A stretch of 42,525 nt of DNA, from positions 1-42,525 of the forward strand of contig WFXO01000009.1 of NCBI GenBank assembly GCA_015490555.1. The letters are read 5' to 3'. The stretch is from Caldifarciminota bacterium. GTDB taxonomy: Bacteria; Hydrothermota; Hydrothermia; WGAB01. The position numbers and the translations under genes were made by a program. Positions within the stretch are counted from its first letter, which is position 1. Each line of letters opens with the position of its first letter. Below the pieces are notes generated by a model. The model saw only the letters and a program-made list of their open reading frames with translations, did not search any database and was not told the DNA's origin. Of this stretch, positions 420-37,264 are shown piece by piece.

Positions 420-1445
420 ATGACCTTTCGGCTCCAGGATTATCTCTTTGAACTTCCCAAAGATCTCATTGCACAGGAACCGGTCCGACCCAGAGATTCG
501 GCTCGACTCTTTGTTATTCACCGGAAGCCTCTCCATTTTGAACATCGGATCTTCCGTGAACTTCCCCAAATCCTCGACGACCGTTATGTTTTGGTTCTCA
601 ACGAAACACGCGTGATTCCCGCGCGTGTGTATGGTGTGCGGCGGAAAACCGGTGGCAAAGTAGAACTCCTGTTTGTTCGATTTTTGCCCAAGGAGAACCG
701 TGCAGAAACCATGGTCCGAAGCCGTGGCCGCCTCCAACCGGATGAATGGATCGACGCGGGAAGCGCAGCGTTCCGACTCCTGGAACGCACACCCGAAGGA
801 CGATGGCACGTGGAGTATCTTGGAGAGACCGACCTTTTGACCTATCTCCAACGCCAAGGTACGATGCCCCTCCCACCCTATATCAAACGTCCCCCACGCC
901 GAGAGGATCGAACCTGGTACCAGACGGTGTATGCGAGAAAACCCGGCGCCATCGCTGCCCCAACCGCAGGCCTTCACTTCACCCCCCGAGTCCTGAAACG
1001 GCTCCGGGAACGTGGGGTCCAGATCCTTTCCCTGGTGTTGCATGTAGGCATCGGGACCTTCCGCCCGATCAAAACCGAGGACATACGCCAACACAAGATG
1101 GACGCAGAGGCCTATGAAATTCCCGATGCTGTTGCAGAGGCACTCCTCCACGCCCGTGATGAAGGGAAAAAGATCCTCGCGTGTGGAACGACGGTCACGC
1201 GGGCGTTGGAAACATGGGCATGGGACCAAGGATCTCGAAAGGGATGGACAGAACTTTTTATTTATCCACCCTTCCGGTTTCAAGTGGTGGATGCTCTACT
1301 CACCAATTTCCACTTACCCGGAGGGACTCCCGTCCTTCTGGTTTCTGCATTTGTAGGAAGGGAAACCTTACTCACCGCCTACCAAGAAGCCATTCGACTC
1401 CGTTACCGGTTTTTCAGTTATGGAGACGCGATGTTGATCCTATAA
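420..1445 (+). CDS. queA: S-adenosylmethionine:tRNA ribosyltransferase-isomerase QueA
   Basis: 341 residues, normal family length. QueA transfers and rearranges the ribosyl part of SAM onto preQ1 at position 34 of tRNAs for Asp, Asn, His and Tyr, making epoxyqueuosine. Family motifs are clear: N-terminal FELPKDLIAQEP, the central GAIAAPTAGLHFT followed by LHVGIGTFRPI, and the C-terminal NFHLPGGTPVLLVSAF with the FFSYGDAMLI end. The ATG at 420 matches the usual QueA N-terminus, but there is no Shine-Dalgarno: the start codon lies 9 bases after the 3' end of tRNA-Glu. The gene is therefore probably co-transcribed with the tRNA, and processing of the tRNA 3' end would leave a nearly leaderless mRNA. 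tRNA-Glu(UUC) is not itself a QueA substrate. Confidence 0.95.
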   Translation: MTFRLQDYLFELPKDLIAQEPVRPRDSARLFVIHRKPLHFEHRIFRELPQILDDRYVLVLNETRVIPARVYGVRRKTGGKVELLFVRFLPKENRAETMVRSRGRLQPDEWIDAGSAAFRLLERTPEGRWHVEYLGETDLLTYLQRQGTMPLPPYIKRPPRREDRTWYQTVYARKPGAIAAPTAGLHFTPRVLKRLRERGVQILSLVLHVGIGTFRPIKTEDIRQHKMDAEAYEIPDAVAEALLHARDEGKKILACGTTVTRALETWAWDQGSRKGWTELFIYPPFRFQVVDALLTNFHLPGGTPVLLVSAFVGRETLLTAYQEAIRLRYRFFSYGDAMLIL

Positions 1446-1460
1446 CGGGGCCACGAAGAT

Positions 1461-1489
1461 TTGACATATCTTCATCTACCATATAAACT
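1461..1489 (+). promoter_or_regulatory. Probable promoter of the cstA operon
   Basis: -35 TTGACA (1461-1466). The -10 is either TAAACT (1484-1489, 17-base spacer) or TATAAA (1482-1487, 15-base spacer). It lies between the queA stop and the cstA Shine-Dalgarno GGAGG (1518-1522). Confidence 0.6.
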
Positions 1490-1528
1490 TTGTGTAGTTT
1501 TCCGTTTTTCTGACCCTGGAGGTGTGTG

Positions 1529-3283
1529 ATGAATACGTTATGGATCGTGGGTATTGGGTTCCTCCTCTATGTTATTTTGTACCATACCTGGGGCAAGCGT
1601 CTGGCCCAAAGTCTCTTAAAGGTAAGTGATGAAAACCCCACACCTTCACAACTCAAACAAGATGGAATTGACTACGTCCCAACCCCCCGTACCGTTCTAT
1701 TCGGCCATCACTTTGCAAGTATTGCTGGAGCGGCTCCAATTGTTGGACCGGTGATTGCACTTGCCTGGGGTTGGGTTCCTGCGTTACTCTGGGTTTGGTT
1801 CGGCAATGTTCTCATTGGGGCGACGCATGACTACCTCTCCTTGATGGCTTCGGTCCGACACGAAGGACGGTCTATTGAATGGATTGCTGGCGGATTGATC
1901 TCTCGTCGGACCAGTCTCATGTTTCGCGTGTTCATTCTTTTTACCCTGATTTTGATCATTGGGGCATTTTCCGCCATCATCGCGGCAATTTTTGCCAAAA
2001 ATCCAGCGGTGGGCTCCGCCTCTTTTTTCTTCATTTTAGCTGCTGTGATTACCGGGTTCCTGTTATACCGGGTCCGCGTCCAACTATGGCTCGGGACCGT
2101 CATCGGCCTCTTCCTGGTGATCTTGGGAATTCTCGCTGGAATTGAGTTGCCCCTCAGGTTCTCTTTGAATCAATGGCTCCTCCTCCTGTTAATTTATATG
2201 ACCATTGCAGCATCTTTGCCCGTGTGGGCCTTGCTGCAGCCCCGTGACTACCTGAACGCCTTCTTGTTATGGGGAGGACTGATTCTTGGAGGAATTGCAT
2301 TGATGGTTGTCCACGCGGGTTTGAACTTACCCACCTTCACAACCTGGAGTGCCCCGACCATCGGCGGCGTCCCTTCCCCCTTCTGGCCGACGATTCCCTT
2401 GGTGATTGCCTGTGGGGCCCTGTCAGGCTTCCATTCCCTGGTCGCTTCCGGAACAACCTCGAAACAACTGGCGCGGGAAAGTGATGCTTTATTCGTGGGA
2501 ATGGGGGGAATGTTCACCGAAGGATTCCTCTCGACCGTGGTGATCGCATCTGTCGGGGCCTTTGGCTTGACGGTGCTTCAACAACATGGGGTAAGTGCCC
2601 AGGACTCTCTGCAGTTTGCTCGAGATTACGGGGCTGTGTTAAAAGAAGTCGGAGGCCCGGTTGGCCTCTTCTCTTTAAGTTTTGCTGAGGTTGTTTCCCG
2701 TATGATCCCTCTGTCAAAACAGATTATCGCCGTCTTCGCTTCCTTGTGGGTTTCGGCCTTTGCGCTCACGACCCTGGACACCACGACGCGGATTGGACGG
2801 TTCACCCTCAACGAGGTCCTGGATCCTGTGCGCGATCGTGTCCCTGGCCTGGTTTCCTTCCTGACGCAGAACTGGGTCGCGTCCTTCTTGGTGTCCTTGG
2901 CCGGTGTGCTGCTGGCATGGGGCGCTCTCTGGCGGCTCCTCTGGCCTGCGTTTGGCGGGGCCAACCAGATGCTGGCGTCCATTGCCTTGATGACGGTGAC
3001 CGTCTGGGTCTTTCTGACCATGCGACATGCAGGCTTCCTATATCGGCTGGCTGTCTTGCTCCCTACCCTTTTCCTCTGGATTACGATTACTTCTGCTCTC
3101 ATCTGGTACCTTGTGGTGCCCCTTAAGAAGTTCTTCTCGACAAATCCGGTTCAAGCGGTCGTTCTGGGAATCATTGTGTCGGTTGAAATCGTCTTGAACA
3201 TTGTTCTCTTCTGGGACGCATTTCGGACTATCGTGGCACACCGAGCGATCCAAAAGGAGCCCGGACCAGCCCCAACCGCATGA
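1529..3283 (+). CDS. cstA: Carbon starvation protein A family transporter
   Basis: 584 residues, shorter than E. coli CstA/BtsT (about 700). The family hallmark GHHFASIAGAAPIVGP is present around residues 60-76, followed by GATHDYLSLM and about 13-15 hydrophobic segments to the C-terminus. Characterised members take up peptides (CstA) or pyruvate by proton symport (BtsT). A GTG at 1526 directly precedes the ATG; the ATG at 1529 is chosen because GGAGG ends 6 bases before it. The stop overlaps the start of the EnvC-like gene (ATGA), so the two are probably translationally coupled. Substrate is unknown; pyruvate would fit the pyruvate:ferredoxin oxidoreductase nearby, but that is inference. Confidence 0.9.
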   Translation: MNTLWIVGIGFLLYVILYHTWGKRLAQSLLKVSDENPTPSQLKQDGIDYVPTPRTVLFGHHFASIAGAAPIVGPVIALAWGWVPALLWVWFGNVLIGATHDYLSLMASVRHEGRSIEWIAGGLISRRTSLMFRVFILFTLILIIGAFSAIIAAIFAKNPAVGSASFFFILAAVITGFLLYRVRVQLWLGTVIGLFLVILGILAGIELPLRFSLNQWLLLLLIYMTIAASLPVWALLQPRDYLNAFLLWGGLILGGIALMVVHAGLNLPTFTTWSAPTIGGVPSPFWPTIPLVIACGALSGFHSLVASGTTSKQLARESDALFVGMGGMFTEGFLSTVVIASVGAFGLTVLQQHGVSAQDSLQFARDYGAVLKEVGGPVGLFSLSFAEVVSRMIPLSKQIIAVFASLWVSAFALTTLDTTTRIGRFTLNEVLDPVRDRVPGLVSFLTQNWVASFLVSLAGVLLAWGALWRLLWPAFGGANQMLASIALMTVTVWVFLTMRHAGFLYRLAVLLPTLFLWITITSALIWYLVVPLKKFFSTNPVQAVVLGIIVSVEIVLNIVLFWDAFRTIVAHRAIQKEPGPAPTA

Positions 3284-4365
3284 TGGGACTCTCTGTGTTC
3301 CTCTCCGCGGTTTTGCTTGTCGTTGCCACAGAGTCGGAGTATCGTGCAAAGTTACAGGAATTGGAAGCCAAACTCAAAGCCACTCGTCAAAAACTTCAAC
3401 AACTGGAGACACAAGAGAAGGATTTAGAACGCCAACTCCGCCTTTTAGATGAAGAGCGAAAGACCCTCCAGCAGATGATTCGGACGACCCGACAGGAAGA
3501 GCGGCGTGTACGGCGCCGTTTAGATCTCCTTAACCGACGGATTCAGGAGGGACACCGTCGGCTGGGGATCTGGTTAGAAGCCTTAAAGGTGTCGGCTCAG
3601 GACGCCGCCATTGAACATGTGTGGCCTGAAGATGACCCTGTGCTCTCCCTGGTCGCAACTCAAATGACCCACATTGCGAAAAGCAACCTTGAAAGATATC
3701 GTTCCGAGGTCCAGCAACTCCGGGTATGGAAAAAGGATCGAGAGAAGGCCTGGCAAGCGATCCGTTCACTTCGCAAGCGCTTAGAAAAGGATGAACAGAC
3801 TCTGGCAGCGGTTGAACGAAAACGAAGAGCCCTCTTAAAGAAAGTTCAGCAGCAAAAGAAACAGACCAAAACTCGAGAGCAAGAGATTTTAGAAGACAAG
3901 CGAAAGTTGGAGGCCCTGCTTCGTGAACTCGCACAAAAATCTAAGGCCAAAAGGGAGGCGCAGGGTGTCCCAACACGACCTTTAAAACGTGGGCTTCTCT
4001 CCTGGCCAGTACACGGACAGGTCATCGCGGAATTTGGAATGATGAAGGACCCGAAGTATGGAACCAAGGTCAAGAATAACGGGATCGATATCCTTTCTGC
4101 CCCTGGGAGCGAGATCCGTGCAGCAGCCGATGGAGAGGTGGTTTTTGCCGGACCCTTTTTGAGTTATCGAAACATGGTGATTCTCGATCACCACGGCTTT
4201 CTCACGGTTTATGCCTATCTGGATGTCCTTTATGTCCAAGTGGGAGATCAGGTGGATCGTGGAACACCCATTGGCCGATTGGGGGACCAGCAGCCCATCC
4301 TCCACTTCGAAGTTCGACGAGAGGGGAAGGCCGTCAACCCCCTTCGATACCTTGGATCGTCATAG
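3280..4365 (+). CDS. EnvC-like M23-family murein hydrolase activator, catalytically degenerate
   Basis: 361 residues: a short signal peptide (about 1-18), a long charged coiled coil (about 20-230) and a C-terminal LytM/M23 domain (about 243-358). This is the layout of EnvC/NlpD-type proteins that activate cell-wall amidases during division. Zinc-site residues of active M23 peptidases are mostly missing: the first His of HxxxD is Asn266 (NNGID, Asp270 kept), the His of the YAHL motif is Tyr313 (YAYL), and the first His of HxH is Ile340 (ILH, His342 kept). It is therefore predicted to be a non-enzymatic activator. The ATG at 3280 overlaps the cstA stop; a second ATG at 3283 is equally possible. 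No amidase partner lies in the window. Confidence 0.85.
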   Translation: MMGLSVFLSAVLLVVATESEYRAKLQELEAKLKATRQKLQQLETQEKDLERQLRLLDEERKTLQQMIRTTRQEERRVRRRLDLLNRRIQEGHRRLGIWLEALKVSAQDAAIEHVWPEDDPVLSLVATQMTHIAKSNLERYRSEVQQLRVWKKDREKAWQAIRSLRKRLEKDEQTLAAVERKRRALLKKVQQQKKQTKTREQEILEDKRKLEALLRELAQKSKAKREAQGVPTRPLKRGLLSWPVHGQVIAEFGMMKDPKYGTKVKNNGIDILSAPGSEIRAAADGEVVFAGPFLSYRNMVILDHHGFLTVYAYLDVLYVQVGDQVDRGTPIGRLGDQQPILHFEVRREGKAVNPLRYLGSS

Positions 4366-19664: not shown

Positions 19665-19817
19665 TACACCTTCCGATCGACGTGGTTCGTTTTTGAACAG
19701 TCTTGCTTGACCCTTCAGGGATTTCACAGGTTCTTTTCCCGGATTCTCCCAGTTGGCATTCAATTTGCATACGCTCCACGGGAGGGTGGGGTGATTCTTT
19801 TTAAAGGAAGGAGGCTT

Positions 19818-20885
19818 ATGACGTCTCGGTGTCTGGCTTATTTGATGTGGGGAATATGGCTTTTTGGGGGCATCCCGGGGTCTTTGTGGGCACAAAGCCC
19901 CAAGGACCCCAATCAACGATGCCAGGTCTGCCACGGCAAGCCCGATCTCAAGGTGGAGGTGCGACCAGGGGTATTCCGGACCCTCTTCATTGATTACGAG
20001 AAGTTCAAATCCTCCGTTCACCATAAGTTCCAGTGCGTCGATTGTCATACCGATGTGGTCTCCATTCCCCATCGACGGATGCCGAAGAAAATCTATTGTT
20101 TACAGTGTCATTTCGAAGGTAATGTGGTCGGTGCACCGGTTCAGCGAATGCCGGAGAAGTACAAGGAAAGTGTGCACGGGAAAGCACGCCTTGCCGGCAA
20201 CCCAGAGGCTCCAGATTGTCAGGACTGTCATACGACCCATAACGTCCGACCGCCTGGAGATCCCCAATCCTCCGTATACAAAACCAACGTGATCCAAACC
20301 TGTGGCAAGTGCCACATTCAGCAACTCCAGGACTACACCGAAGGTATCCACGGCCAGGCATTAAAGCAGGGAGATCTTGCGGCTCCTGCGTGTAACGATT
20401 GCCACCAAGAACACGACGTTCTCCCACCTGAAGACCCTAAGTCCTCCATCAATCCGAAAAATGTGGTTCAGACCTGTGCCAAGTGTCACGAGAACGAGCG
20501 GTTGATGACCCAACGCGGGGTGCCTGTGGAGCAAGTGGAAACGTACAAGGAAAGTTTCCATGGAATTGCATTAGAGTTTGGGATGAAAACCGCTGCAAAC
20601 TGTGTCAGTTGTCATGGGTACCACCGGATTCTGCCCCAAAAGGACCCTCGTTCCCCCATCAACCCTGCTAATCTGGCCAAGACCTGTGGCAAGTGTCATC
20701 CACGGGCCACAGAGACCGTGGCAAAGGGAAGTTTCCACATTAATCCCAAGGAACCTTCAGCGGGGATCGTCTATGCCATCAGCACTTTCTTCAAGTGGTT
20801 TACCTATTCTGTGATCGCTGGGTTAATTCTCCACATCCTTTTGGATCTTTTCGGACGGGTGCGTCGGAAAAGGAGGGCCTTGTGA
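19818..20885 (+). CDS. Nine-heme c-type cytochrome with C-terminal membrane anchor
   Basis: 355 residues. Signal peptide (about 1-25, ending SLWAQS), nine CxxCH heme-binding motifs (CQVCH, CVDCH, CLQCH, CQDCH, CGKCH, CNDCH, CAKCH, CVSCH, CGKCH), then one membrane helix near residues 320-345 and a basic tail (RVRRKRRAL). Residues about 110-310 hold three similar units with HG, CxxCH, DP and TCGKCH elements. It would sit on the outer face of the inner membrane and pass electrons between cytochrome b and partners. ATG 19818 has AAGGAGG upstream. The 153 bases before it (19665-19817) show no clear promoter. First gene of a three-gene electron-transfer operon. Confidence 0.9.
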   Translation: MTSRCLAYLMWGIWLFGGIPGSLWAQSPKDPNQRCQVCHGKPDLKVEVRPGVFRTLFIDYEKFKSSVHHKFQCVDCHTDVVSIPHRRMPKKIYCLQCHFEGNVVGAPVQRMPEKYKESVHGKARLAGNPEAPDCQDCHTTHNVRPPGDPQSSVYKTNVIQTCGKCHIQQLQDYTEGIHGQALKQGDLAAPACNDCHQEHDVLPPEDPKSSINPKNVVQTCAKCHENERLMTQRGVPVEQVETYKESFHGIALEFGMKTAANCVSCHGYHRILPQKDPRSPINPANLAKTCGKCHPRATETVAKGSFHINPKEPSAGIVYAISTFFKWFTYSVIAGLILHILLDLFGRVRRKRRAL

Positions 20886-21790
20886 TGCCCCAGCATAATG
20901 ATCCCACCCGATTGGAAAAATGGGTCCAATCGTTAGAGAAAGAATTGGGGTTTCCCCTTACCCCGGAGGCCAAAGCAAAGATTCTGGCCATCTTGAGTGA
21001 ACAACAAATTCGCGCACAGACTTCTCAAAGTGAGCCAAAACCCAAGAAACAAGAAGAAGAGTTCGTGCGATTCAGCCTGAATATTCGTATTCAGCATGCG
21101 GTTCTCGCGGTTTCTGTGCTACTCCTGATCTTCACCGGACTACCCTTGAAGTATCACGAAGCAGCGTGGGCAGAGTTTGTCATGAGACTTTTCGGCGGGA
21201 TCTCGGTCACCCGAGTACTTCATCGAATTGCCGCTGCTCTTTTAACAGGTGTAGGAATCTACCACCTCTTTTGGATTCTCGGCACTCGGGCGGGACGACG
21301 GGAGTTGTGGTACTTACTTCCTCGATGGAAGGACTTTAAGGACTTTTACCAAAATATTCGCTACTTCTTGGGATTCACCGAGGAGCGCCCCAAGTTTGAC
21401 CGATACAGTTACATTGAAAAGTTCGATTACTGGGCTGTCTATTGGGGGATGGTCATCATGATTGGTTCCGGCATCATCCTTTCCTTTTTCCCTTATCTCG
21501 TCCAGGTCTTGCCAAAATATGTGTTTGATATTGCGCGGGAGATGCATTCCGACGAGGCCCTTTTGGCCACATTGGCCATCGTGATCTGGCACTGGTATAA
21601 CGCACACTTCAATCCAGATGTTTTCCCTATGAACTTCACGATCTTCACCGGGAAAATCCCCAAAGAAAGGATGATCCACGAACACTACTGGGAGTACGTT
21701 CGCATCCTTCAGCAAAGAGAACGTCAACAATCGTCAACTACAAATCTCCAAGACCAAACTCTTTCAATGGAAAAAGGAGCTGACTCATGA
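20885..21790 (+). CDS. Membrane b-type cytochrome (formate dehydrogenase gamma/cytochrome b561-like)
   Basis: 301 residues. A soluble, charged N-terminal part (about 1-60) precedes four to five membrane segments. Likely heme-b histidines lie in RIQHAVLAV, VLHRIAAALLTGVGIYHLFW and IVIWHWYNAHFNP. This is the pattern of the gamma/cytochrome b subunits of formate dehydrogenase, hydrogenase and quinone-linked cytochrome modules, which move electrons to or from quinone. Its start shares a base with the preceding cytochrome stop (TGATG), with GGAGG upstream, and its stop overlaps the 18-heme gene. It is therefore the quinone-facing subunit of this complex. Confidence 0.85.
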   Translation: MPQHNDPTRLEKWVQSLEKELGFPLTPEAKAKILAILSEQQIRAQTSQSEPKPKKQEEEFVRFSLNIRIQHAVLAVSVLLLIFTGLPLKYHEAAWAEFVMRLFGGISVTRVLHRIAAALLTGVGIYHLFWILGTRAGRRELWYLLPRWKDFKDFYQNIRYFLGFTEERPKFDRYSYIEKFDYWAVYWGMVIMIGSGIILSFFPYLVQVLPKYVFDIAREMHSDEALLATLAIVIWHWYNAHFNPDVFPMNFTIFTGKIPKERMIHEHYWEYVRILQQRERQQSSTTNLQDQTLSMEKGADS

Positions 21791-23757
21791 GGAGAGGGAT
21801 TCTATTGGGCGTTCTCGGTGTCATCCTCATTGCAGGCCTTGCAAGTTTCCACGTACTGACTGATCGGCCCTCTTTTTGTCGATCCTGCCACTTCATGGTC
21901 CCCTTCGTAGAGAACTGGGAGACATCTACCCATAAGGATGTGAACTGTAAGGATTGTCACTGGAGTCCAGGTCTTTCGGCCTATCTGGTAGGGAAACTCA
22001 AACTCGGTGCCGAAATGCTGCGGTATGCCGTAGGAGCACAGAACCCTTTGGTTCGGAGTCAGATCCGTGATGGGGCCTGCCTGAAGTGCCATCCCTTGTC
22101 GTCCCTGCCGGATACGGTGTGGTATCAAGAACGGATTCCCTTTCAGCACCGCATTCACTATGGACAGAGCATTCGGGGCATCCGGACGACTTGTACGACC
22201 TGCCACTACCAACTTGTGCAGGGGAATCACCTGTTGGTGGCGCAAGAAGCCTGTATCCAATGTCATTTTGTAGGTCGCCCGGAAGGTCAACCCGTCCAAG
22301 ACTGCTATACCTGTCACGGTCCACCAAGGGATGCCATCCAGGTTGGTGGCTTTACGTTCTCCCACTCCAAATACTTGAAAGCAGGGGTGGAGTGTACGAG
22401 TTGTCACATCCACGTGACCAAGGGTCGTGGAGATGTGCGTCGAACTGCTTGCAAAGCGTGCCATGTCCAAGAATTTGAAACTTTTGGAGATTCTTTGGCC
22501 ATCCATGAGATCCATGTCACCCAACGACACTACAAGTGTGAGGATTGCCACGAACATATCCAGCACCGCAAAGTAGAGATCTCCCAGGCCATTGCACCAG
22601 AGTGTCAGACATGCCACCCACCGGGCCATTCCACACAGGAGATGATGTACTTAGGGACTGGCGGAAAAGGGGTTTCTCCCATGCCCGATCCGATGTTTCT
22701 CTCCCGTGTGGCCTGTTTCGGTTGTCATACCGGAGGGATTGCTTTAAGGGACAGCCAGATTCCTGGCCGGAGGTGGAGACCACGGGCCTCCGGGAAGACG
22801 TGCGAGGCGTGTCATGGCAAAGGCTATGCCCGTCTCATGAACCAATGGCAGAGAACGGTTACACAGACCCTCACACGATTGGAGGACCGTGTCCCATGGC
22901 TTGAACCCTTAGCACGCCAGGGGAAAGAATTCCGTAAATCCCTGGAAGACGTGGAAGGAAATCTACTATTTGTTCGTCAAGACGGAAGTTTTGGCGCCCA
23001 TAACATTCGGTACACCGTGGCCCTCTTAAAGTGGTCAGAGGCGGCCCTTAAAGAGATCGAAAAGGCGTTTCTCGAGGGAAGACCCATCAGATCTCCTACC
23101 GTCCATATAGAGGAAGCGGATACCAGCTGCGAGCGCTGCCATGCGTGTGTAGCAGAACTGACAGTGGAGGTCGACTCGTTGCAGTTCCCCCATGGTCCTC
23201 ATACCCAAAACTTTACCTGTTCAACATGTCACTCAACCCAAAAACATGGTCTGACCCTCCAGCGGGATTGTAACACCTGCCATCACGAAAAATATGCGAA
23301 AAATAAAGAATGTTCAGACTGTCATAAGATTCAAAGCCGTCTCTATCACGGGACCCTGGCGGGCCTGGATCAGCCCGATGTCATGGCCGATGCAGAGGTC
23401 GCTTGTGAAGACTGCCATGGGTCTGATCATGGCCCGGTCCGACCAACCTCCGAAGTCTGCGTGGATTGTCACGATGAGACTTATGCAGAAACACTCCAAG
23501 AATGGCAAGAGGAATTTCGCGAAGAAATGGCCAGTCTTGAAGAGGTTCTCACACCTCAGATTGCGGAACAATTACAGAAGTTGCCACGAAAGGCATTTCT
23601 CCGAGTGTACCGCGAAGTCTTAAAGGCAAAGGCACTCTTTGATACCCTTCAACAGGACGGGAGCCAGGGAGTCCACAATCCAGAGTTGATCCAAGAACTT
23701 GTGAGTCGGATTCGTTCGCGACTGATGGAGAATCCTATGGGAACGGACAGCCCGTGA
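21787..23757 (+). CDS. Eighteen-heme c-type cytochrome with NapC/NrfH-like anchor
   Basis: 656 residues. An N-terminal uncleaved membrane helix (about 3-24) followed at once by FCRSCHFM is typical of NapC/NrfH-type cytochromes. Eighteen CxxCH motifs occur: twelve between residues about 30 and 345, a heme-free helical spacer (about 350-450), and six more between about 450 and 565; the last 90 residues are helical without hemes. No CxxCK motif is present, so it is not an NrfA nitrite reductase. With the nine-heme cytochrome and cytochrome b it gives 27 c hemes, a possible wire from quinol to a periplasmic or extracellular acceptor (inference). ATG 21787 overlaps the cytochrome b stop. Confidence 0.9.
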   Translation: MRRGILLGVLGVILIAGLASFHVLTDRPSFCRSCHFMVPFVENWETSTHKDVNCKDCHWSPGLSAYLVGKLKLGAEMLRYAVGAQNPLVRSQIRDGACLKCHPLSSLPDTVWYQERIPFQHRIHYGQSIRGIRTTCTTCHYQLVQGNHLLVAQEACIQCHFVGRPEGQPVQDCYTCHGPPRDAIQVGGFTFSHSKYLKAGVECTSCHIHVTKGRGDVRRTACKACHVQEFETFGDSLAIHEIHVTQRHYKCEDCHEHIQHRKVEISQAIAPECQTCHPPGHSTQEMMYLGTGGKGVSPMPDPMFLSRVACFGCHTGGIALRDSQIPGRRWRPRASGKTCEACHGKGYARLMNQWQRTVTQTLTRLEDRVPWLEPLARQGKEFRKSLEDVEGNLLFVRQDGSFGAHNIRYTVALLKWSEAALKEIEKAFLEGRPIRSPTVHIEEADTSCERCHACVAELTVEVDSLQFPHGPHTQNFTCSTCHSTQKHGLTLQRDCNTCHHEKYAKNKECSDCHKIQSRLYHGTLAGLDQPDVMADAEVACEDCHGSDHGPVRPTSEVCVDCHDETYAETLQEWQEEFREEMASLEEVLTPQIAEQLQKLPRKAFLRVYREVLKAKALFDTLQQDGSQGVHNPELIQELVSRIRSRLMENPMGTDSP

Positions 23758-26648: not shown

Positions 26649-28010
26649 TCAGACCAAGACTTGCCCGTAATGGCGAAGGAGATCCAATTGGTGGACCAGG
26701 TTCTCCAAGAATGTGCGTGGGTCGATGGCACTCAGGTTCCGCAGGAGACGGTTCCGGACTTTTGCCATTTCCTCCTTGGACGGAACAAAGTCTGGAAAGG
26801 CCCTTTGATAAACACGAACGGTAGCATCAAACATCTCTTCATAGGCCTGGGAGGATAAAGGTTGAAGCGTCAGCCAATGTTTTGAGGGGATCTCCTGAAG
26901 CATCGAGAGATACGTTTCCTGCATGAGAGGGGTAAAGGCCGCGACGACAAAAAGGTGAGAAGGCAGGTGATAGGCATAGGGCATTGGGCGAACACCCGAA
27001 TGAACTCGACCCCAGGCATCCCGCTTCCCTACGGGATAGAATGTTTCTCCGGTGAGATCCAGTGTTTGGGTTTCTGGAGCATTGAGGGCCGTGGCCAGGA
27101 GCCCTTTGAGGAACATTAAGGCCATGATCCATCGGTCGTAATGGGTCACATAGGTGAAAAAGACTCCCTCTCCTTCATCGAACAGAAGGGCCAGACCTGG
27201 ATGTCCCAGTTGTTGAAGTAAAAAGCCGTAAGCCGTCAGTAGATTCACATAGATATCTGCGGCGGAACTGTGGTCAAGCAGAACTGGCAGCCGCCAGTGA
27301 TGTAAATGGTCGAGGTAGTCACGATCCAGAGGCTCCCCTTGAATGTAGGCCCACAAATAGGGATCGTCGGGGTTCTTACGGAGTGCCCGAAAAAGAGGAC
27401 TGAGGAAGGGATGGGGCTTGGGGAGTTGGGTGGATTCGATGGATTCTCCCAGGAAATCACGGAATGTGCCGTTCTTTCCGTTGGGAAGCCGGACCTGGAA
27501 GTTCCGGCAGATCTCCCGGTAGATGTGTTTTGGCCGGGTTGGGGTGCCGGCCATCGGATGCAGTTCGATCATGGAGACCGCAAAGCCATCTTCCAGGAAC
27601 TGTTCCCGTAGGTAGTCCAAAAAGTGGGTTTTACCGGATCCATAAGGACCCTCTAAAAGGAGCACCTGGCCGTGGGTTTGGTGGTACTCCTGGAGGAGAG
27701 TGTGAAAGACACGGAGTTCAGAATCCCGGCCAAAGGTGAACTCACGGATGGCGAAGCGCGGAACGATCCCCAAACGGAAGGCTTCGATCATCCGTCGAGC
27801 CTGAAAATCCCCACCTCGTGAAGGCCTGGATTGGAGCGGCCGAGGGGCGGTTGTTGTGGGAGGCGGTGGGGTTCCGTCCAACAGCGTCACTTCTTCGCTT
27901 TTGATCCACAGGACAAGGTTTCGGTCTTCAAATCGAACCAGATATTCCATCCCCATCCACCGTTCACGGAGCACCTCGCCGATCCCAAACACGGGATGTC
28001 GGACCTTCAT
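26649..28010 (-). CDS. P-loop ATPase with N-terminal UvrD/CarD-like Tudor domain (second ATPase of a three-gene cassette)
   Basis: 453 residues. The first 45 residues (VRHPVFGIGEVLRERW, then EYLVRFEDRNLVLWIKSEEV) match the small SH3/Tudor-like domain found at the C-terminus of PcrA/UvrD and in CarD/Mfd-type RNA-polymerase-binding domains (HPxFGxGxV). A Pro/Thr-rich linker follows (about 48-65). Then an AAA/STAND-type ATPase: Walker A GPYGSGKT (121-128, Lys127), Walker B LALLFDEGEG (Asp278, Glu279), and a sensor-like FVVAAFTP. The layout resembles the next gene and BrxC/BrxD-type DUF2791 proteins. The start shares a base with the upstream stop (TGATG). Function unknown; a nucleic-acid or RNA-polymerase link is inferred from the Tudor-like domain. 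Confidence 0.7.
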   Translation of the reverse strand: MKVRHPVFGIGEVLRERWMGMEYLVRFEDRNLVLWIKSEEVTLLDGTPPPPTTTAPRPLQSRPSRGGDFQARRMIEAFRLGIVPRFAIREFTFGRDSELRVFHTLLQEYHQTHGQVLLLEGPYGSGKTHFLDYLREQFLEDGFAVSMIELHPMAGTPTRPKHIYREICRNFQVRLPNGKNGTFRDFLGESIESTQLPKPHPFLSPLFRALRKNPDDPYLWAYIQGEPLDRDYLDHLHHWRLPVLLDHSSAADIYVNLLTAYGFLLQQLGHPGLALLFDEGEGVFFTYVTHYDRWIMALMFLKGLLATALNAPETQTLDLTGETFYPVGKRDAWGRVHSGVRPMPYAYHLPSHLFVVAAFTPLMQETYLSMLQEIPSKHWLTLQPLSSQAYEEMFDATVRVYQRAFPDFVPSKEEMAKVRNRLLRNLSAIDPRTFLENLVHQLDLLRHYGQVLV

Positions 28011-29281
28011 CAGAACTCTTGAGATTCTGCGGATTCCAATGGAGCCTGTTCCAGTGCCTGGACCTCCTCCATGAGGAGACGCTGGATGCGGGGGCGGTCA
28101 GGCACCCATTGTGGGTCTAATCGCAGGGCATGAAAGGCGTGCAAGATGCCTTTCACAAAAATCCGACGATATCCGATATCCGCGCCTCGAAACTGGTAGG
28201 CTTCTTGAGCGGTGATCAGCAATGTTTTCTGAAGAGCCTCCTCATCGAAGGTGTAGGAATAAGCAATGGAGTAGAGGTTTGCCAATTTTTTCCCGAGTTC
28301 TTGCAGGAAGGTCAAAGGGTCCATCCCCAGGTTTTCGAGGTCGATCTTGACGCCCGACGGATTTGTGGGGCCCAGGACACCCGCCAGCCGCTGGCGAAGC
28401 GCTTCATAGGTCTCCAGACGTTCATCCAGGAGTGCACGGACATCTGGCACCGCGTAAAAGATCATGACTCCCGGAAGCCTGGAGTTCCCGCATTCATCAA
28501 TCATCTGACGGAGGTTATCCAGGGCCATCCGTTTCTCACGGGAAGATGCAATGCTCATCCCACGTTCTGCCTCGTCAAAAAGGAGGATCAACCCGGCATA
28601 GCCCAGGGTTCGAATCCATTGAGCAAGGGAACGGATGAGACGGGAGGCGGTAGACCGATCAAGTCGTTCGGTGATCCCGAACCGATTTCGGGTTTCTCGG
28701 TCGATCTCTTCCCCCTTCAACCATTGCAGGATCCTCTGATACGTCTCGTCGTCCCCCTCGGCCAATGCGCGGAAAGCCGCCCGCACCGCGTTCGTGAAAC
28801 TGGAACTTTCCATCCCGGAGATCCCCTGCAGGTAGAGGTCGATGTGTTCCTTTTCAAGGCGTTGACTTTGCTCCAAATACCATGCTCGAAGGAATGCGTC
28901 GATCCCCAGTTCATAAGGTTGCCAGGGTCTGGCGGCCGATTTCGGATGAGCCAGGCCGGACATGATGGCCCGGTACACCAACTCGAGTTTATTGAAGGGA
29001 CACTCCTGGGGAGAAAGGGCGACATAACTGGTCACATACCCTAACCGCCAAGCGAGGTTCTTGACCGTGTAAAGAAAGTGGGTTTTGCCCCCACCGTAGG
29101 TCCCTACCACCAATTTAAAGGCGGACCCACCCTGTCGAATGAAGTCCTGGAGATATTCCTCTTCGATCACGCGCAGGAAGGGATCGAGTCCTACGGTATA
29201 ATGCTCCAGGCCGTGTTCCGGGGGAGTCCCGGTCTCTGCAATCCGATGCAAAATCATTCGGGCTTCAGTGGGTTTCAGCAT
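28010..29281 (-). CDS. BrxD/DUF2791-like ATP-binding protein
   Basis: 423 residues. The opening (EARMILHRIAETGTPPEHG, a GLDPFLRVIEEEYLQDFI helix) leads to Walker A VVGTYGGGKTHF (Gly60-Thr67) and SYVALSPQECPFNKLELVY, a pattern strongly recalling the 'BREX system ATP-binding' DUF2791 family (BrxD, and PglY/BrxC-like proteins). Walker B is LILLFDEAERG (Asp236, Glu237), with a later GVMIFYAVPDV sensor strand. Known BrxD works in phage defence, but no other BREX gene (methylase PglX, PglZ, BrxL) is here. It overlaps the coiled-coil gene upstream by 17 bases and the second ATPase downstream by 1 base. Confidence 0.75.
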   Translation of the reverse strand: MLKPTEARMILHRIAETGTPPEHGLEHYTVGLDPFLRVIEEEYLQDFIRQGGSAFKLVVGTYGGGKTHFLYTVKNLAWRLGYVTSYVALSPQECPFNKLELVYRAIMSGLAHPKSAARPWQPYELGIDAFLRAWYLEQSQRLEKEHIDLYLQGISGMESSSFTNAVRAAFRALAEGDDETYQRILQWLKGEEIDRETRNRFGITERLDRSTASRLIRSLAQWIRTLGYAGLILLFDEAERGMSIASSREKRMALDNLRQMIDECGNSRLPGVMIFYAVPDVRALLDERLETYEALRQRLAGVLGPTNPSGVKIDLENLGMDPLTFLQELGKKLANLYSIAYSYTFDEEALQKTLLITAQEAYQFRGADIGYRRIFVKGILHAFHALRLDPQWVPDRPRIQRLLMEEVQALEQAPLESAESQEF

Positions 29282-30107
29282 TTTGGATCACCAGATAAGC
29301 ATAGCGAGTCCCTTTCTCGGGACCATCCGGGATAAACAGGGCTTGCTGAGGATCCCGGGTTTGGTCGAAGGTCGCCACCACGAGTTGAATCCTGTTACCG
29401 TATCGAGAACGACGGAGCCTGTAGAGGTCATAGGCAAATTGGATACGTGTGTACTCTCGGAAATGCCGTTTCGAGGGATCGGCCCAAAAGGCCGAGGGTT
29501 GGCGGAGAAGGACCAGATGCCGAAGGATTTGTAAGAGAGGGGCACGCCCTTGGGAAGAAGGAGAATCCTGGAGCACACGTCGATATGCCTTCAGAAGTTG
29601 CTGGAAGAACTCCTCAGCCTGGAACGGGGTGTTGAGACGTTGTTCAAAAGACCGGAGGGTCTGGACCACCCGCTCCGGCTCCAAAGGGGTCTGGCCAATC
29701 TCTTCAGGCCCCCAAAAGATCCGTAGTGTCCCTCGCTCGAAATTTGGTCGGAAGGTGTAGAGTCCTGCATAGAAGGTAGGATCTTGCCCGGTGAGGTTGA
29801 GTGGGAGGGATTGGAGGGCCTTCTGTAGGCGTTGAAAATACGTCCACCGATACCGCTGTTTGAGGGGCTCAAGCAGGGCACGTTCCTGGGTGATCCACTG
29901 GCGGATGGTCCGTTTCAAATCGGATGCCCCCTCAATCTTTTCCGCCGCCCTTTCAATTTTTTTGAGCGCTTGTTCTAACACAAATGGATTGGCTTCCTCC
30001 TTCTCAGCCTGTTTCAAGTACACCTTCAGGTGTTTCCCCAATTGCGTCACCTGCCTGGATAACGTTTGGAGATTTTTCAGGATCTCCTTCAACCGTTCGG
30101 TTTCCAT
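29265..30107 (-). CDS. Unknown protein with N-terminal coiled coil; first gene of the ATPase cassette
   Basis: 280 residues. Residues 1-95 are charged helix (METERLKEILKNLQTLSRQ, then a heptad-rich region) likely to form a coiled coil; the rest is a mixed alpha/beta domain with GLYTFRPNFERGTLRIFWG near 115-135 and ending in RIQLVVATFDQT and YAYLVIQNAETH. No signal peptide or membrane helix, so it is cytoplasmic. I do not recognise a family. The start is ATG 30107 without a Shine-Dalgarno; a promoter with its -10 box only 9 bases before the ATG predicts a leaderless mRNA. It is translated into the BrxD-like gene by a 17-base overlap, so its product probably works with the two ATPases. Confidence 0.7.
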   Translation of the reverse strand: METERLKEILKNLQTLSRQVTQLGKHLKVYLKQAEKEEANPFVLEQALKKIERAAEKIEGASDLKRTIRQWITQERALLEPLKQRYRWTYFQRLQKALQSLPLNLTGQDPTFYAGLYTFRPNFERGTLRIFWGPEEIGQTPLEPERVVQTLRSFEQRLNTPFQAEEFFQQLLKAYRRVLQDSPSSQGRAPLLQILRHLVLLRQPSAFWADPSKRHFREYTRIQFAYDLYRLRRSRYGNRIQLVVATFDQTRDPQQALFIPDGPEKGTRYAYLVIQNAETH

Positions 30108-30242: not shown

Positions 30243-30271
30243 TTGACCGTTGGAAATCGGAAACGTATAAT
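30243..30271 (+). promoter_or_regulatory. Promoter of ftsK (leaderless)
   Basis: -35 TTGACC (30243-30248), 17-base spacer, perfect -10 TATAAT (30266-30271). The ftsK ATG begins at 30279, 7 bases after the -10 box, which places the expected transcription start on the start codon itself. Confidence 0.88.
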
Positions 30272-30278
30272 TGACCCG

Positions 30279-32681
30279 ATGGAATTCATTGTCTCTCTTG
30301 TTCTCCTCTTGGGATTCCTGGCACTTTTTGTCTGGATGGCCGGGATTCCCGTGGATCGCTTCTGGCGCTACGCCTATCAAGTTTCTCTCTTTGCCTTGAG
30401 TGTTCTGGTCACCCTCAGTCTTGTTTCTTATCACCTTGGAACCCATCCGAACTGGGCTGGGATCTGGGGGCATTGGGTTGCGGGACGCCTGGTTCGAGTC
30501 CTTGGATATGGCCCCGCGTACGCATTGGTTTTGTTGGGATTGATCTTGAGTGTTTTAGGGATGGGACGGCCTCGTCGCCTTTACGTACGCTGGGTCAGTG
30601 GCTATTTAATGGTTTTTTTCCTCTTGACCCTTGTGCCCTTGTGGGGATACCGGGGCCCCTGGATCGGAATTCTTCCGTACCAACTTTCTGCCTGGACACG
30701 GGCCTTTTTGGGGCCTTATGGGGGGACCGTCTTCCTGGCTTTGTGGATTACGTTGTTTGGGCTCCTCGCGATCCCGGTGGAGCGACTCAAGATCCCTCTC
30801 CGGTGGCCGAAACTTTCAAAAAAAAAGGCACCAGCCCAACAACGCACCCAAAGACCTAAAGTCGCCCTGAAGAAGAAATCGGTTGAGAAACCGGAGGCCC
30901 CAACCCCTTCTTCCACGCAGACTTCCTCGACCTTTTCACGGACAGAAGAATCCGAGACTTCCTTGACACGGGGAGAGCAATCTGACTTTTGGAAAGAAGA
31001 CACGATCCCTGGGGGCGATGCGCTGCTCCCCTTGTTGAATGAACCGGTGGTCGAGAGTACCGTAGATGAACAGGAGTGCGAAGAGAACGCACGATTGATC
31101 GAGCAGAAGCTGCAGGAATTTAAGGCGACTGGCCGAGTGGTTGCGTATCATCCCGGCCCCGTCGTGACCCGGTATGAGTATGAGCCGGATCCTGGAGTGA
31201 AATTGTCCAAGGTTGTGAATCTGGCGGATGATTTAGCGTTACGGATGAAAACCAGTAAGGTTCGGATTGTGGCCCCTTTGCCGGACAAAGGGCGTATCGG
31301 CATCGAAATTCCCAATAAGAAGCGTCGGATTGTCTATTTCCGTGAGTTGGCTGGCCATCCAAAATTCAAGGAACTCCCTTCCAAATTGGGATTTGCATTG
31401 GGTGTGGATACCGCGGGCCATCCGGTATTTGCGGATCTGACACGGATGCCCCATTTGCTGATTGCCGGCGCGACAGGGTCCGGGAAATCGGTCTGTATCA
31501 ATACCATCATTTTGTCCATCCTGTTCCGGGCTCAACCCTCGGACGTCCGGTTCATCCTGATTGACCCGAAGCGAATCGAACTTTCTTATTACGAGGGCAT
31601 CCCGCATCTTTTGTTGCCTGTGGTAAAAGATCGGGAAGAGGCGGTGGAAGCCCTCCAACAAGTCGTCCGGTGGATGGATCTGCGGTATAAACACTTTGCA
31701 AAGGATGGGGTCCGAGATATTGAGAACCATAACCTGAACGCTCGAAAACGCAAGGACACCCCGATCCCCTACATCGTGGTGGTGATCGATGAGTTTGCAG
31801 ATCTCATCCTTTCCGTTGGGAAGAAAGTTGAGGAACCCCTGGCTCGCCTTGCTCAGATGGCACGAGCCGTCGGCATCCATCTGGTGGTCGCAACGCAACG
31901 GCCTTCGGTAGATGTGATCACCGGGCTCATCAAAGCAAACTTCCCGGTCCGCATTGCCTTCAAGGTCGCCTCCAGAGTGGATTCTCGGACCATTTTAGAC
32001 GAAATTGGAGCAGAGAAACTCTTAGGCAGAGGAGACATGCTCTTTTTGCCTCCGGGTTCCTCAGAGCCCAAACGGATTCATGGACCCTTTGTTTCCGAAG
32101 AAGAGACGAAACGAATTACCCGAGAATTGACCCGGACGTATCTCAAAAAGAAACTCACGGATGTATTCGGGCCACGTCCCTGGGATCATGTGGTGGAAGA
32201 GATCCTTGATGGCGGCTATCTAAGTGCTTTAACCCGTTCGGATGAACCTGGCTCCGAGGAACGGTTGCATCGCGTTGCGACCCATATTCTTTCCCGAGTC
32301 CTCCGCATTCCGACGGAGGAAATTGTCGACGGCTTGGAGGCTTTACGAGAGGAATACTATGAGCCAATTGAAGAAATGATCGAGGCCCCAATTATCCTCG
32401 GGAGTGAAAAGGGAGAAGAGGAGGCGTTCGTGCTCCCGGGAGAGGGCTGGGATCCCCTGGTCATCGAAGCGGCACGGCTTGCCGTGACACGACGGACCCT
32501 CTCTGCAACGCTGCTCCAGAGGAGATTTCAAATCGGGTTTGCTCGTGCTGCACGGATCCTGGATCAGTTGGAAAGGTTGGAAATCGTGGGACCTCAGGAA
32601 GGCGCAAAACCCCGAAAAGTCCTGATGACCTGGGAAGAGTTTGAACGGAGGTTCCGTAAGAGGGGGGAATCGGGGGAATGA
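30279..32681 (+). CDS. ftsK: DNA translocase FtsK/SpoIIIE
   Basis: 800 residues. FtsK pumps chromosomal DNA at the division septum and activates dimer resolution. Four membrane segments lie in residues 1-165, then a Lys/Pro/Ser-rich linker (about 185-245), the alpha domain (about 250-370), the RecA-like motor with Walker A GATGSGKS (397-404) and Walker B YIVVVIDEFADL, and the winged-helix gamma domain (about 720-795, AARILDQLERLEIVGPQ). The open frame reaches TTG 30243, but that triplet is the -35 box, so ATG 30279 is used. No Shine-Dalgarno; the mRNA is predicted leaderless. Its stop overlaps the barrel gene start. Confidence 0.95.
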   Translation: MEFIVSLVLLLGFLALFVWMAGIPVDRFWRYAYQVSLFALSVLVTLSLVSYHLGTHPNWAGIWGHWVAGRLVRVLGYGPAYALVLLGLILSVLGMGRPRRLYVRWVSGYLMVFFLLTLVPLWGYRGPWIGILPYQLSAWTRAFLGPYGGTVFLALWITLFGLLAIPVERLKIPLRWPKLSKKKAPAQQRTQRPKVALKKKSVEKPEAPTPSSTQTSSTFSRTEESETSLTRGEQSDFWKEDTIPGGDALLPLLNEPVVESTVDEQECEENARLIEQKLQEFKATGRVVAYHPGPVVTRYEYEPDPGVKLSKVVNLADDLALRMKTSKVRIVAPLPDKGRIGIEIPNKKRRIVYFRELAGHPKFKELPSKLGFALGVDTAGHPVFADLTRMPHLLIAGATGSGKSVCINTIILSILFRAQPSDVRFILIDPKRIELSYYEGIPHLLLPVVKDREEAVEALQQVVRWMDLRYKHFAKDGVRDIENHNLNARKRKDTPIPYIVVVIDEFADLILSVGKKVEEPLARLAQMARAVGIHLVVATQRPSVDVITGLIKANFPVRIAFKVASRVDSRTILDEIGAEKLLGRGDMLFLPPGSSEPKRIHGPFVSEEETKRITRELTRTYLKKKLTDVFGPRPWDHVVEEILDGGYLSALTRSDEPGSEERLHRVATHILSRVLRIPTEEIVDGLEALREEYYEPIEEMIEAPIILGSEKGEEEAFVLPGEGWDPLVIEAARLAVTRRTLSATLLQRRFQIGFARAARILDQLERLEIVGPQEGAKPRKVLMTWEEFERRFRKRGESGE

Positions 32682-35326: not shown

Positions 35327-37264
35327 TTACTGGACGATGAGGAGTTTCTTCGTCAGAGTCCGCTGGTTGGCCTGGAGTTTGTAGAAGTAGACACCTGCCG
35401 TAACCTTGCCGTTGGTGTTCCAGGTCACCCTGTGGATCCCGGCATTGAGTTGGCCGTTGACAAGGGTGGTTACGAGTCGACCGGAGGCGTCGTAAACAGA
35501 GAGGTTGACATCCATGGCTTGTGGCAGTCCAAATTCAATGGTTGTCTGTCGAGTTGCCGGATTCGGATAGGCATCGGCCAGGAAGAGTCGGAGACCGGGC
35601 TGAATCCCTGTTTCTTCAACATCTGTGAGCAGGCCAAAGAACTGAGCGATGTAGAGAACAATCGAATCTGCAGGCGGGCTCTGGATGCCCATTAGCGGGC
35701 TCACTCCACCCATTTCAAAGGACTGACCAAAGGTTTTGAAGGTTCCCTGGTCGTACGCAACCCCACAGTTATAGCCGATGCTGGGATTGTACCACACGGC
35801 TTCCGCAGTTCCGCCCATCGTTGGGCCAGGAGTCAAGCGGTCAATCCAGTTGTTTTCACCTGTGTAAAGGAAGTTTTGGGTGCTATTGATGTCGGGGATC
35901 AAAGTATTGTCTAATCCCTGAAAGAGAGCAAGATCTGCAGATCCATCTTCTGCGTAAACGATTCCGGTCCACGGCAGGATGTTCCAGGCCCCGGTACCAG
36001 GATCCCAGCCCCACAAGTCACTGCCTTCGAAGTAGGCAGTACCACCGGCCTGGAGGAAGGCTTCGATCAGGGAGCCGGAGTTCGGATCGATCTGGGTGTT
36101 GTTGGGGAAGATGCCGGCGATGAACCATAAAGATTTGTAAATCCCTAAGGTATTTAGATCTCCTATGCTGGTGGAGTAGGTCCCAACGAGGCCGGCACCG
36201 CTGAGGACGTTGTCAATGAAGGGACCAGAGAGGGGTGTGGGATCGACGTCAATGATGAGATAATCCAGTTGGCCAGCATAAACGTCACAGGTAGCTGAGG
36301 TAGAGTCGTTGTTCGGGTTTTGATCCCCTGCCAAGACCGTCCAGGCCCAGGAGGTGTAAGTCCCTTCGGCTCCGAAGGTATAGGAGGGGAAGATGACATC
36401 CTGGACATCCCCTGGGTTCAGGCTCAGCTGGGTACTTTCACGGTAGACCTCAGCATCCAGCGTTTGATCATAGATAGCGAAATACGCCCAGAAGGTTTCT
36501 GCATTGGCCCCGATATTTCGGAAGGTTGCGGTGGGATCGACCACATCACCAACGAAGTAGATCCCCACAGGAGCGGAGATGTTGGTTGCTGCCACATCGT
36601 GATCGGGTGGAGGTCCGGTCTGGACGATCGCCAAGATATCCCAGTTATAAGGAAGGCCGTAGTCATTCAGTTCTGCCCAACCGCCACCGGCAAACCAGAC
36701 CCAGTCTCCTTTGCCAATCACTGGCGGTCCCGCGTCCACAGCGATGGGATATTCACCAGCCTGGTGGGTGATCTCTACGGCAACCCACATATCGTTGGCA
36801 CCATCAATCACGACCGGAACTGTCAGATCTACTCGATACCACCCTGTCCCCGTGACCGTGTACGGTTCTGTGGAGAGAGTGTCCCCAGGCATATTGGGAG
36901 CTCCGGGACCATATACAACGATTCGGCCGGAGTGTGTTCCGGGCTCCCAGTGATAGAATGCGACAGAGATGAGAGTATTCCCATCGTACAGCCCTAACTC
37001 ATCTGGTGTGAATCGGGCGGCGGCCTGGTAGGTGCCTCCATTGGTCAACCCAATGGCGTCACTGGCGACTGTATTGGGATCGTCAAAGCGGAGGGTCTCT
37101 TCGGGTTGAGGGGTAGCGAGATGCGGGTTGATGGCTTTCACGATTTGTTGGATCGAGGCTCCCTGGGACCGGGCATTGGTGAGGATCGGGCTTGACTTTT
37201 GGACCTTCGTAGCTCCTGATAGACTCCCTATCAGGAGTGCGACGACTACGCTATAGCGCCACAT
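35327..37264 (-). CDS. Secreted multidomain protein with C-terminal Por/T9SS type A-like sorting domain
   Basis: 645 residues. Signal peptide (about 1-18, VVVALLIGSLSGA). An N-terminal jelly-roll-like region (about 60-205), a CARDB-like beta sandwich (about 215-325, HDVAATNISAPVGIYFVGD), an alpha/beta domain (about 330-470, LDYLIIDVDPTPLSG), and a C-terminal sorting domain (about 565-645) with AYPNPATRQTTIEFGLP, VYDASGRLVTTL and the basic end TLTKKLLIVQ. That end is the type A signal of the type IX secretion system, or the related FlgD-like fold. Strong AAAAAAGGAGG precedes ATG 37264. No T9SS machinery is in the window. No enzyme motif seen; perhaps a surface or extracellular structural protein. 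Confidence 0.8.
   Translation of the reverse strand: MWRYSVVVALLIGSLSGATKVQKSSPILTNARSQGASIQQIVKAINPHLATPQPEETLRFDDPNTVASDAIGLTNGGTYQAAARFTPDELGLYDGNTLISVAFYHWEPGTHSGRIVVYGPGAPNMPGDTLSTEPYTVTGTGWYRVDLTVPVVIDGANDMWVAVEITHQAGEYPIAVDAGPPVIGKGDWVWFAGGGWAELNDYGLPYNWDILAIVQTGPPPDHDVAATNISAPVGIYFVGDVVDPTATFRNIGANAETFWAYFAIYDQTLDAEVYRESTQLSLNPGDVQDVIFPSYTFGAEGTYTSWAWTVLAGDQNPNNDSTSATCDVYAGQLDYLIIDVDPTPLSGPFIDNVLSGAGLVGTYSTSIGDLNTLGIYKSLWFIAGIFPNNTQIDPNSGSLIEAFLQAGGTAYFEGSDLWGWDPGTGAWNILPWTGIVYAEDGSADLALFQGLDNTLIPDINSTQNFLYTGENNWIDRLTPGPTMGGTAEAVWYNPSIGYNCGVAYDQGTFKTFGQSFEMGGVSPLMGIQSPPADSIVLYIAQFFGLLTDVEETGIQPGLRLFLADAYPNPATRQTTIEFGLPQAMDVNLSVYDASGRLVTTLVNGQLNAGIHRVTWNTNGKVTAGVYFYKLQANQRTLTKKLLIVQ

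Follow-up and report, generated by a model that had tools for sequence, protein, structure and literature searches.

The question raised by a 42,525-nucleotide stretch of DNA from Caldifarciminota bacterium (contig WFXO01000009.1 of assembly GCA_015490555.1, analysed at its full length and hereafter called the window), whose genome belongs to the candidate division WOR-3, is whether three overlapping genes on its minus strand, named here A (29265..30107), B (28010..29281), and C (26649..28010), belong to a system that has escaped description. The original prediction for this locus had proposed a three-gene cassette composed of a coiled-coil protein and two ATPases, possibly acting in defence or chromosome maintenance. 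We found that the three genes are part of a set of four, the last member of which is a helicase (D), and that A-B-C-D is a conserved, apparently undescribed module built from known kinds of parts, which is akin to the anti-phage systems BREX and Shango without belonging to either. A text search of the open-access literature, including the searched passages of PMC12839542 and PMC12278908, found no published description of this set, which agrees with the earlier proposal of an undescribed system, although absence from these sources is not proof.

Composition and conservation of the operon

The three open reading frames and their Walker motifs were found as had been claimed, with overlaps of 17 bases between A and B and of 1 base between B and C. 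A promoter common to the trio, which had also been claimed, was not recovered in a scan for the sigma-70 consensus, which gave no site upstream of A, and the gene next downstream of the trio has its own strong sigma-70 consensus site; one promoter for A-B-C is nevertheless plausible.

A profile (alignment) of B, run against a collection of 84,980 species, identified 163 relatives, while the same scan with the single B sequence instead of the alignment gave none. The best 80 of these 163 relatives are distributed over about 14 bacterial phyla as well as methanogenic and anaerobic methanotrophic (ANME) archaea. In relatives from the same phylum as the window genome, D, a DEAD/DEAH BrxHI-like superfamily 2 (SF2) helicase, sits directly after A-B-C. 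Of the 82 loci with a B gene, 79 have C immediately after B, 64 have a homologue of A immediately upstream of it, and 47 have the four genes in one uninterrupted row, with contig ends truncating some of the remaining loci; the median intergenic gaps are 0 to 4 bases. Homologues of these genes are therefore adjacent as a rule rather than rarely, and the conservation as a unit that had been expected is borne out. However, the unit is not a cassette of three genes. D was overlooked because it lies on a separate contig in the window genome (G000:C103:16-1911, minus strand), and we rejected the trio as a complete system in view of the position of D downstream of C in relatives and of its unlinked copy here. 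Here and in the nearest relative (G001), the neighbour of D is a gene whose product appears from its sequence to be a POTRA/outer-membrane-assembly protein; in a further genome (G041) D is also unlinked, yet it adjoins a glycosyltransferase gene that comes after D in family f22. All helicase motifs of D are intact (SPAASGKTEA, DEIH, SAT, and QRIGRGNRR).

We also scanned 147 genomes of the WOR-3 phylum and detected B in 61, A in 58 (after removal of one marginal match), D in 56, and all three in 51. The co-occurrence is strong (Fisher p 8e-38 for A and B, and 9e-30 for B and D, p values that are uncorrected for shared ancestry), and in family f17 and the family of the window genome the genes are co-retained although not all of them are linked. 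The divergent arrangement with ftsK, which the original prediction had taken as a hint of chromosome maintenance, does not recur in relatives; we regard this adjacency as incidental rather than functional, and it therefore provides no evidence for such a role. Two further observations were made around the position of D. Repeats that read like a CRISPR array occur about 3 kb from the unlinked D of the nearest relative genome (G001:C86, L192 about 1400-3300), and in a Candidatus Stahlbacteria locus (L054) the usual position of D immediately after C is taken by genes that probably encode a type III restriction-modification system.

The ATPases, the Tudor domain, and protein A

B (423 aa) is a BrxD-like AAA+ ATPase that matches PF10923 (BrxC_BrxD) over its whole length (9.8e-52, 176.7 bits), and C (453 aa), which joins a Tudor domain to a second BrxD-like ATPase, matches mainly the first third of the same profile (3.1e-21, 76.2 bits). 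Both scores are above the gathering cut-off of 22.2, and the prediction of two BrxD/DUF2791-like ATPases is thus confirmed; with the curated BrxD model NF033438 they reach 149 and 64 bits, respectively, both under its cut-off of 350. Walker A and Walker B are retained in aligned relatives of the two proteins. In B, Walker A (GTYGGGKT, 29081..29104, minus strand) and Walker B (LFDEAERG, 28559..28582, minus strand) overlap the segments YGGGKTHFL and FDEAE, which are invariant across 8 relatives; in C, the invariant residues in 57 aligned rows are G121, Y123, G124, G126, and K127 of Walker A (GPYGSGKT, 27627..27650, minus strand) and D278, E279, and E281 of Walker B (LFDEGEGV, 27162..27185, minus strand).

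The AlphaFold2 model of C (pLDDT 91.1) has the AAA+ fold of the origin recognition complex (ORC)/Cdc6 clade, its best solved matches in Foldseek being ORC1, Orc4, archaeal Cdc6/Orc1, and BrxC. The matches to Drosophila ORC (3.4e-4) and S. cerevisiae ORC (3.9e-4) have a probability of 1.00 but full-length TM-scores of only 0.34-0.41, as is to be expected for a remote AAA+ homologue that carries an additional domain. The profile of B matches BrxD and SngB with equal certainty (99.8% each). In a tree built from 89 ATPases, the B proteins make up a clade by themselves (62 sequences, support 100), as do the C proteins, and BrxD and SngB group apart from them, although long branches caution against interpreting the deep order. 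The B protein of the window itself groups with Aminicenantes and two other bacteria and not with most WOR-3 sequences, and some transfer has therefore occurred in WOR-3 too.

The Tudor domain occupies about residues 1-46 of C (27873..28010, minus strand), with predicted strands at residues 2-5, 9-17, 22-27, and 32-37 of the AlphaFold2 model. The HPVFGIGEV domain is kept in most C proteins, and P6, G9, G11, F27, and W35 are invariant in 30 members. The best solved relatives of its profile are all UvrD/PcrA Tudor domains (7egt at 6e-4, followed by 7egs, 6yi2, and 4c2t), as had been foreseen in the assignment of an RNA-polymerase-type Tudor of the UvrD/CarD kind, while only 3 of the 30 members reach PF21196 at E<=1. 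In PcrA, the residues H681, W684, K712, and L714 are required for binding to RNA polymerase (PMC5397179). The histidine and the aromatic residue recur in the H-P-x-F motif of C, but in the alignment the lysine K712 has no conserved counterpart. Besides this, the Tudor domain of PcrA/UvrD is C-terminal, whereas that of C is fused N-terminally to an AAA+ ATPase. Among ATP-driven systems of the defence type, an N-terminal Tudor domain is likewise found in the helicases BrxHII and those of BR systems (type-3 BREX and relatives; RapA) (PMC12839542); there, however, it is carried by a Swi2/Snf2 helicase and not by an ATPase of the ORC/Cdc6 type. The Tudor motif is not seen in several C proteins (L021, L072, L093, L094, and L100). 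In three Methanosarcinales loci (L092, L094, and L100), a long stretch of low-complexity sequence, about 450-650 residues, stands at the N-terminus of C instead of the domain, and the operon is located near ileS.

Protein A (280 aa) was modelled by AlphaFold2 with a mean pLDDT of 95.7 as three long helices (residues 2-98) followed by an alpha/beta domain with a small sheet. No significant match was obtained for A in Pfam, and its model had no match at E<=0.001 when compared by Foldseek with the PDB and a viral fold library; scattered matches to ORC subunits (E about 0.6-3) were not used. The earlier description of A as an unknown coiled-coil protein holds for the long N-terminal helices and for the lack of a known family, but it understated the protein, because the C-terminal two thirds are a confidently predicted alpha/beta domain. 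A is of interest as a confidently predicted fold without a clear solved relative. It is not a diverged SngA/TerB protein, for which profile comparison gave a probability of 0.2%.

Relationship to BREX and Shango

The D proteins of three WOR-3 genomes score 205-295 bits with BrxHI and 206-241 bits with SngC in profile comparisons, and 184-191 bits with Lhr-type models in two of the three cases, below the BrxHI and SngC scores; the best PADLOC match of D is BrxHI or SngC. In a helicase tree, however, 43 D sequences are separated from both with a support of 100. SngC, BrxHI, DruE, and DpdJ have been suggested to form a possibly immune-specific SF2 clade (PMC12278908), and BrxD and BrxHI to be a tightly linked dyad in which BrxD is proposed to act as the helicase loader (PMC12839542). 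Shango restricts phages (PMC10250203).

The module resembles type-2 BREX in the homology of B to BrxD and of D to BrxHI, in the ATPase gene being upstream of the helicase gene, and in the ORC/Cdc6-type AAA+ fold. B and D are in one operon in most relatives, which recalls the BrxD-BrxHI linkage, although they are unlinked in the window genome. In contrast to type-2 BREX, the module has a second ATPase, which bears a Tudor domain, and the additional gene A; B scores under the BrxD cut-off, and B and D fall in separate clades. The window genome also has no BrxC and no evident BREX-type PglZ. A search of the whole genome with PF10923 matched only B and C, and BrxC is therefore absent. The single PglZ-domain protein of the genome starts with a response-regulator receiver sequence, and on this reading of its sequence it is not a BREX PglZ and was rejected as a trace of BREX. 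The earlier statement that no BREX surrounds the trio holds, although PglX was not searched for genome-wide. As for Shango, which is composed of a TerB protein (SngA), an ATPase (SngB), and a helicase (SngC), the likeness lies in a small stand-alone operon with the order helper protein, PF10923-type ATPase, and DEAD helicase, but A is unrelated to the TerB protein, the Tudor ATPase C has no counterpart, and the clades of SngB and SngC include neither B nor D. We also noticed on a Deinococcus psychrotolerans plasmid (L158) a pair of a BrxD-like ATPase and a helicase together with a leucine-rich-repeat-variant protein, a TPR-like protein, and an HNH gene, which is possibly another stand-alone relative of the BrxD-BrxHI dyad.

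Surveillance or housekeeping

We propose that A, B, and C together with D make up one four-part ATP-driven DNA-handling machine, whose most probable function is to survey the cell for foreign or abnormal DNA (probability about 0.5). We regard it as a third branch of AAA+ ATPase and SF2 helicase modules, beside BrxD-BrxHI and SngB-SngC. The proposal is based on observed gene content, operon order, co-occurrence, the fold class of C, the homology of B, intact ATPase and helicase motifs, and the kinship of the Tudor domain, from which we infer complex formation, helicase loading, a partner of the Tudor domain, and a role in defence. B and C would assemble into a heteromeric AAA+ complex of the ORC/Cdc6 type, which would recognise DNA or close around it and load or license D there, and D, once loaded, would translocate and unwind the DNA. 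The Tudor domain of C may be the tether between the complex and a partner, for which RNA polymerase or some other nucleoprotein is the simplest candidate, and A could be an adaptor or sensor in place of the TerB protein of Shango. Most of the WOR-3 families with such a machine would have come to keep it as a fixed feature of the chromosome. In the boldest version of this proposal, a heteromeric ORC-like ATPase pair is tethered by its Tudor domain to RNA polymerase, is guided by the new-fold protein A, and places a helicase of the immune type on foreign or damaged DNA that is being transcribed; this machine would be widespread in bacteria and archaea and a permanent chromosomal part in whole lineages. 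Such a version is conceivable but rather unlikely. If the proposal is true, BrxD-BrxHI and Shango would be two of at least three branches of one core of AAA+ loader and helicase, the third being a widespread stand-alone form mostly outside known defence loci, an immune-type machine would be retained like a core gene, and the helicase-loader model for BrxD would be directly testable in a minimal four-protein system.

Genomic context gives a divided answer to the earlier suggestion that homologues would be enriched in defence islands. Outside WOR-3, OLD/AAA_15-type, GmrSD, Mrr, HNH, or methyltransferase-like genes occur in the vicinity of some loci, and an A-B-C-D set that is divergent yet still recognisable (A at 33.7 bits) lies near AbiE genes on plasmid pDESTI.01 of the cultured Desulfomonile tiedjei. 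WOR-3 copies, however, are not in defence islands. In genome G003 a DNA methylase gene follows D. Several results weigh against surveillance. The difference in defence-gene neighbours (about 8 of 35 loci outside WOR-3 vs 1 of 32 within it, p about 0.03) is post hoc and weak, flanking genes in WOR-3 are housekeeping and syntenic, and none of the viral or phage records searched carries B. Distances of B and FtsK in 29 genomes are strongly correlated (Mantel r 0.90, 0 of 2000 permutations), and their mean distances (0.40 for B and 0.36 for FtsK) point to a similar pace of divergence. In addition, A-B-C-D encode no recognised domain of a nuclease or other obvious effector, and if the module acts in defence, it would therefore either block or unwind DNA directly or borrow a nuclease.

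The main alternative is a chromosomal housekeeping role of the same machine, for which there is a real chance, though one well short of even. B and C would then load D where RNA polymerase has stalled, at R-loops, or on damaged DNA. The Tudor domain would bind RNA polymerase in the way known from PcrA/UvrD, Mfd, and CarD, and the machine would resolve transcription-replication conflicts or aid repair. Such a role is consistent with the UvrD/PcrA-type Tudor domain kept in most C proteins, with the nearly uniform and mostly single-copy presence within several WOR-3 families, with vertical inheritance at an FtsK-like pace, and with the neighbours in WOR-3, to which the location of the operon near ileS in three archaeal loci may be added; D is also kept in three genomes (G000, G001, and G041) although it is apart from the operon. 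However, the nearest experimentally studied relatives are anti-phage systems, and the system is nearly absent from the class of the window genome and patchy elsewhere, and is therefore not essential. The missing counterpart of the RNA polymerase-binding lysine of PcrA and the C proteins without a visible Tudor motif also argue against it.

It is very improbable that the genes are what is left of a type-2 BREX or Shango system, or a diverged copy of one, that has been stripped of its remaining parts and acts, if it still acts, in the manner of that system. The homology of B and D to BrxD/BrxHI and SngB/SngC would be in line with such an origin, but B, C, and D each form a deep clade apart from these and keep a fixed four-gene order of their own across many phyla, by which this explanation is largely refuted; moreover, A is not SngA, BrxC and an evident BREX PglZ are missing from the window genome, and the intact active-site motifs show no decay. 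Least probable of all is a module for DNA uptake, plasmid maintenance, or replication control (an ORC-like initiator with a helicase), neither defence nor repair, because nearly all copies are chromosomal without conserved mobile-element genes alongside and D resembles immune rather than replicative helicases, although the ORC/Cdc6 fold of C with a helicase partner and the ParA gene on the Desulfomonile plasmid would suit it.

The surroundings of the trio in the window, whose genes read as housekeeping, comprise FtsK, a ketopantoate reductase, a Por-type secreted protein, multihaem cytochromes, pyruvate:ferredoxin oxidoreductase, and a radical-SAM/TRAM protein. The listed TTG start of ftsK (30243) overlaps a strong promoter-like site (TTGACC, 17 nt, and TATAAT ending at 30271, within 30243-30283), and its true start is therefore probably the ATG just downstream, in which case the promoter would belong to ftsK. 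An in-frame TAG in ftsK of family f17 proved to be only the normal stop. At 19707-23757, two multihaem cytochromes flank a cytochrome b561-type protein, an arrangement that resembles an extracellular or periplasmic electron-transfer module. The protein at 35327-37264 has a Por secretion sorting tail, and elsewhere in the genome the response-regulator-like PglZ-domain protein (G000:C75, L194:2314-3771) would be in keeping with PorX from a type IX secretion system.

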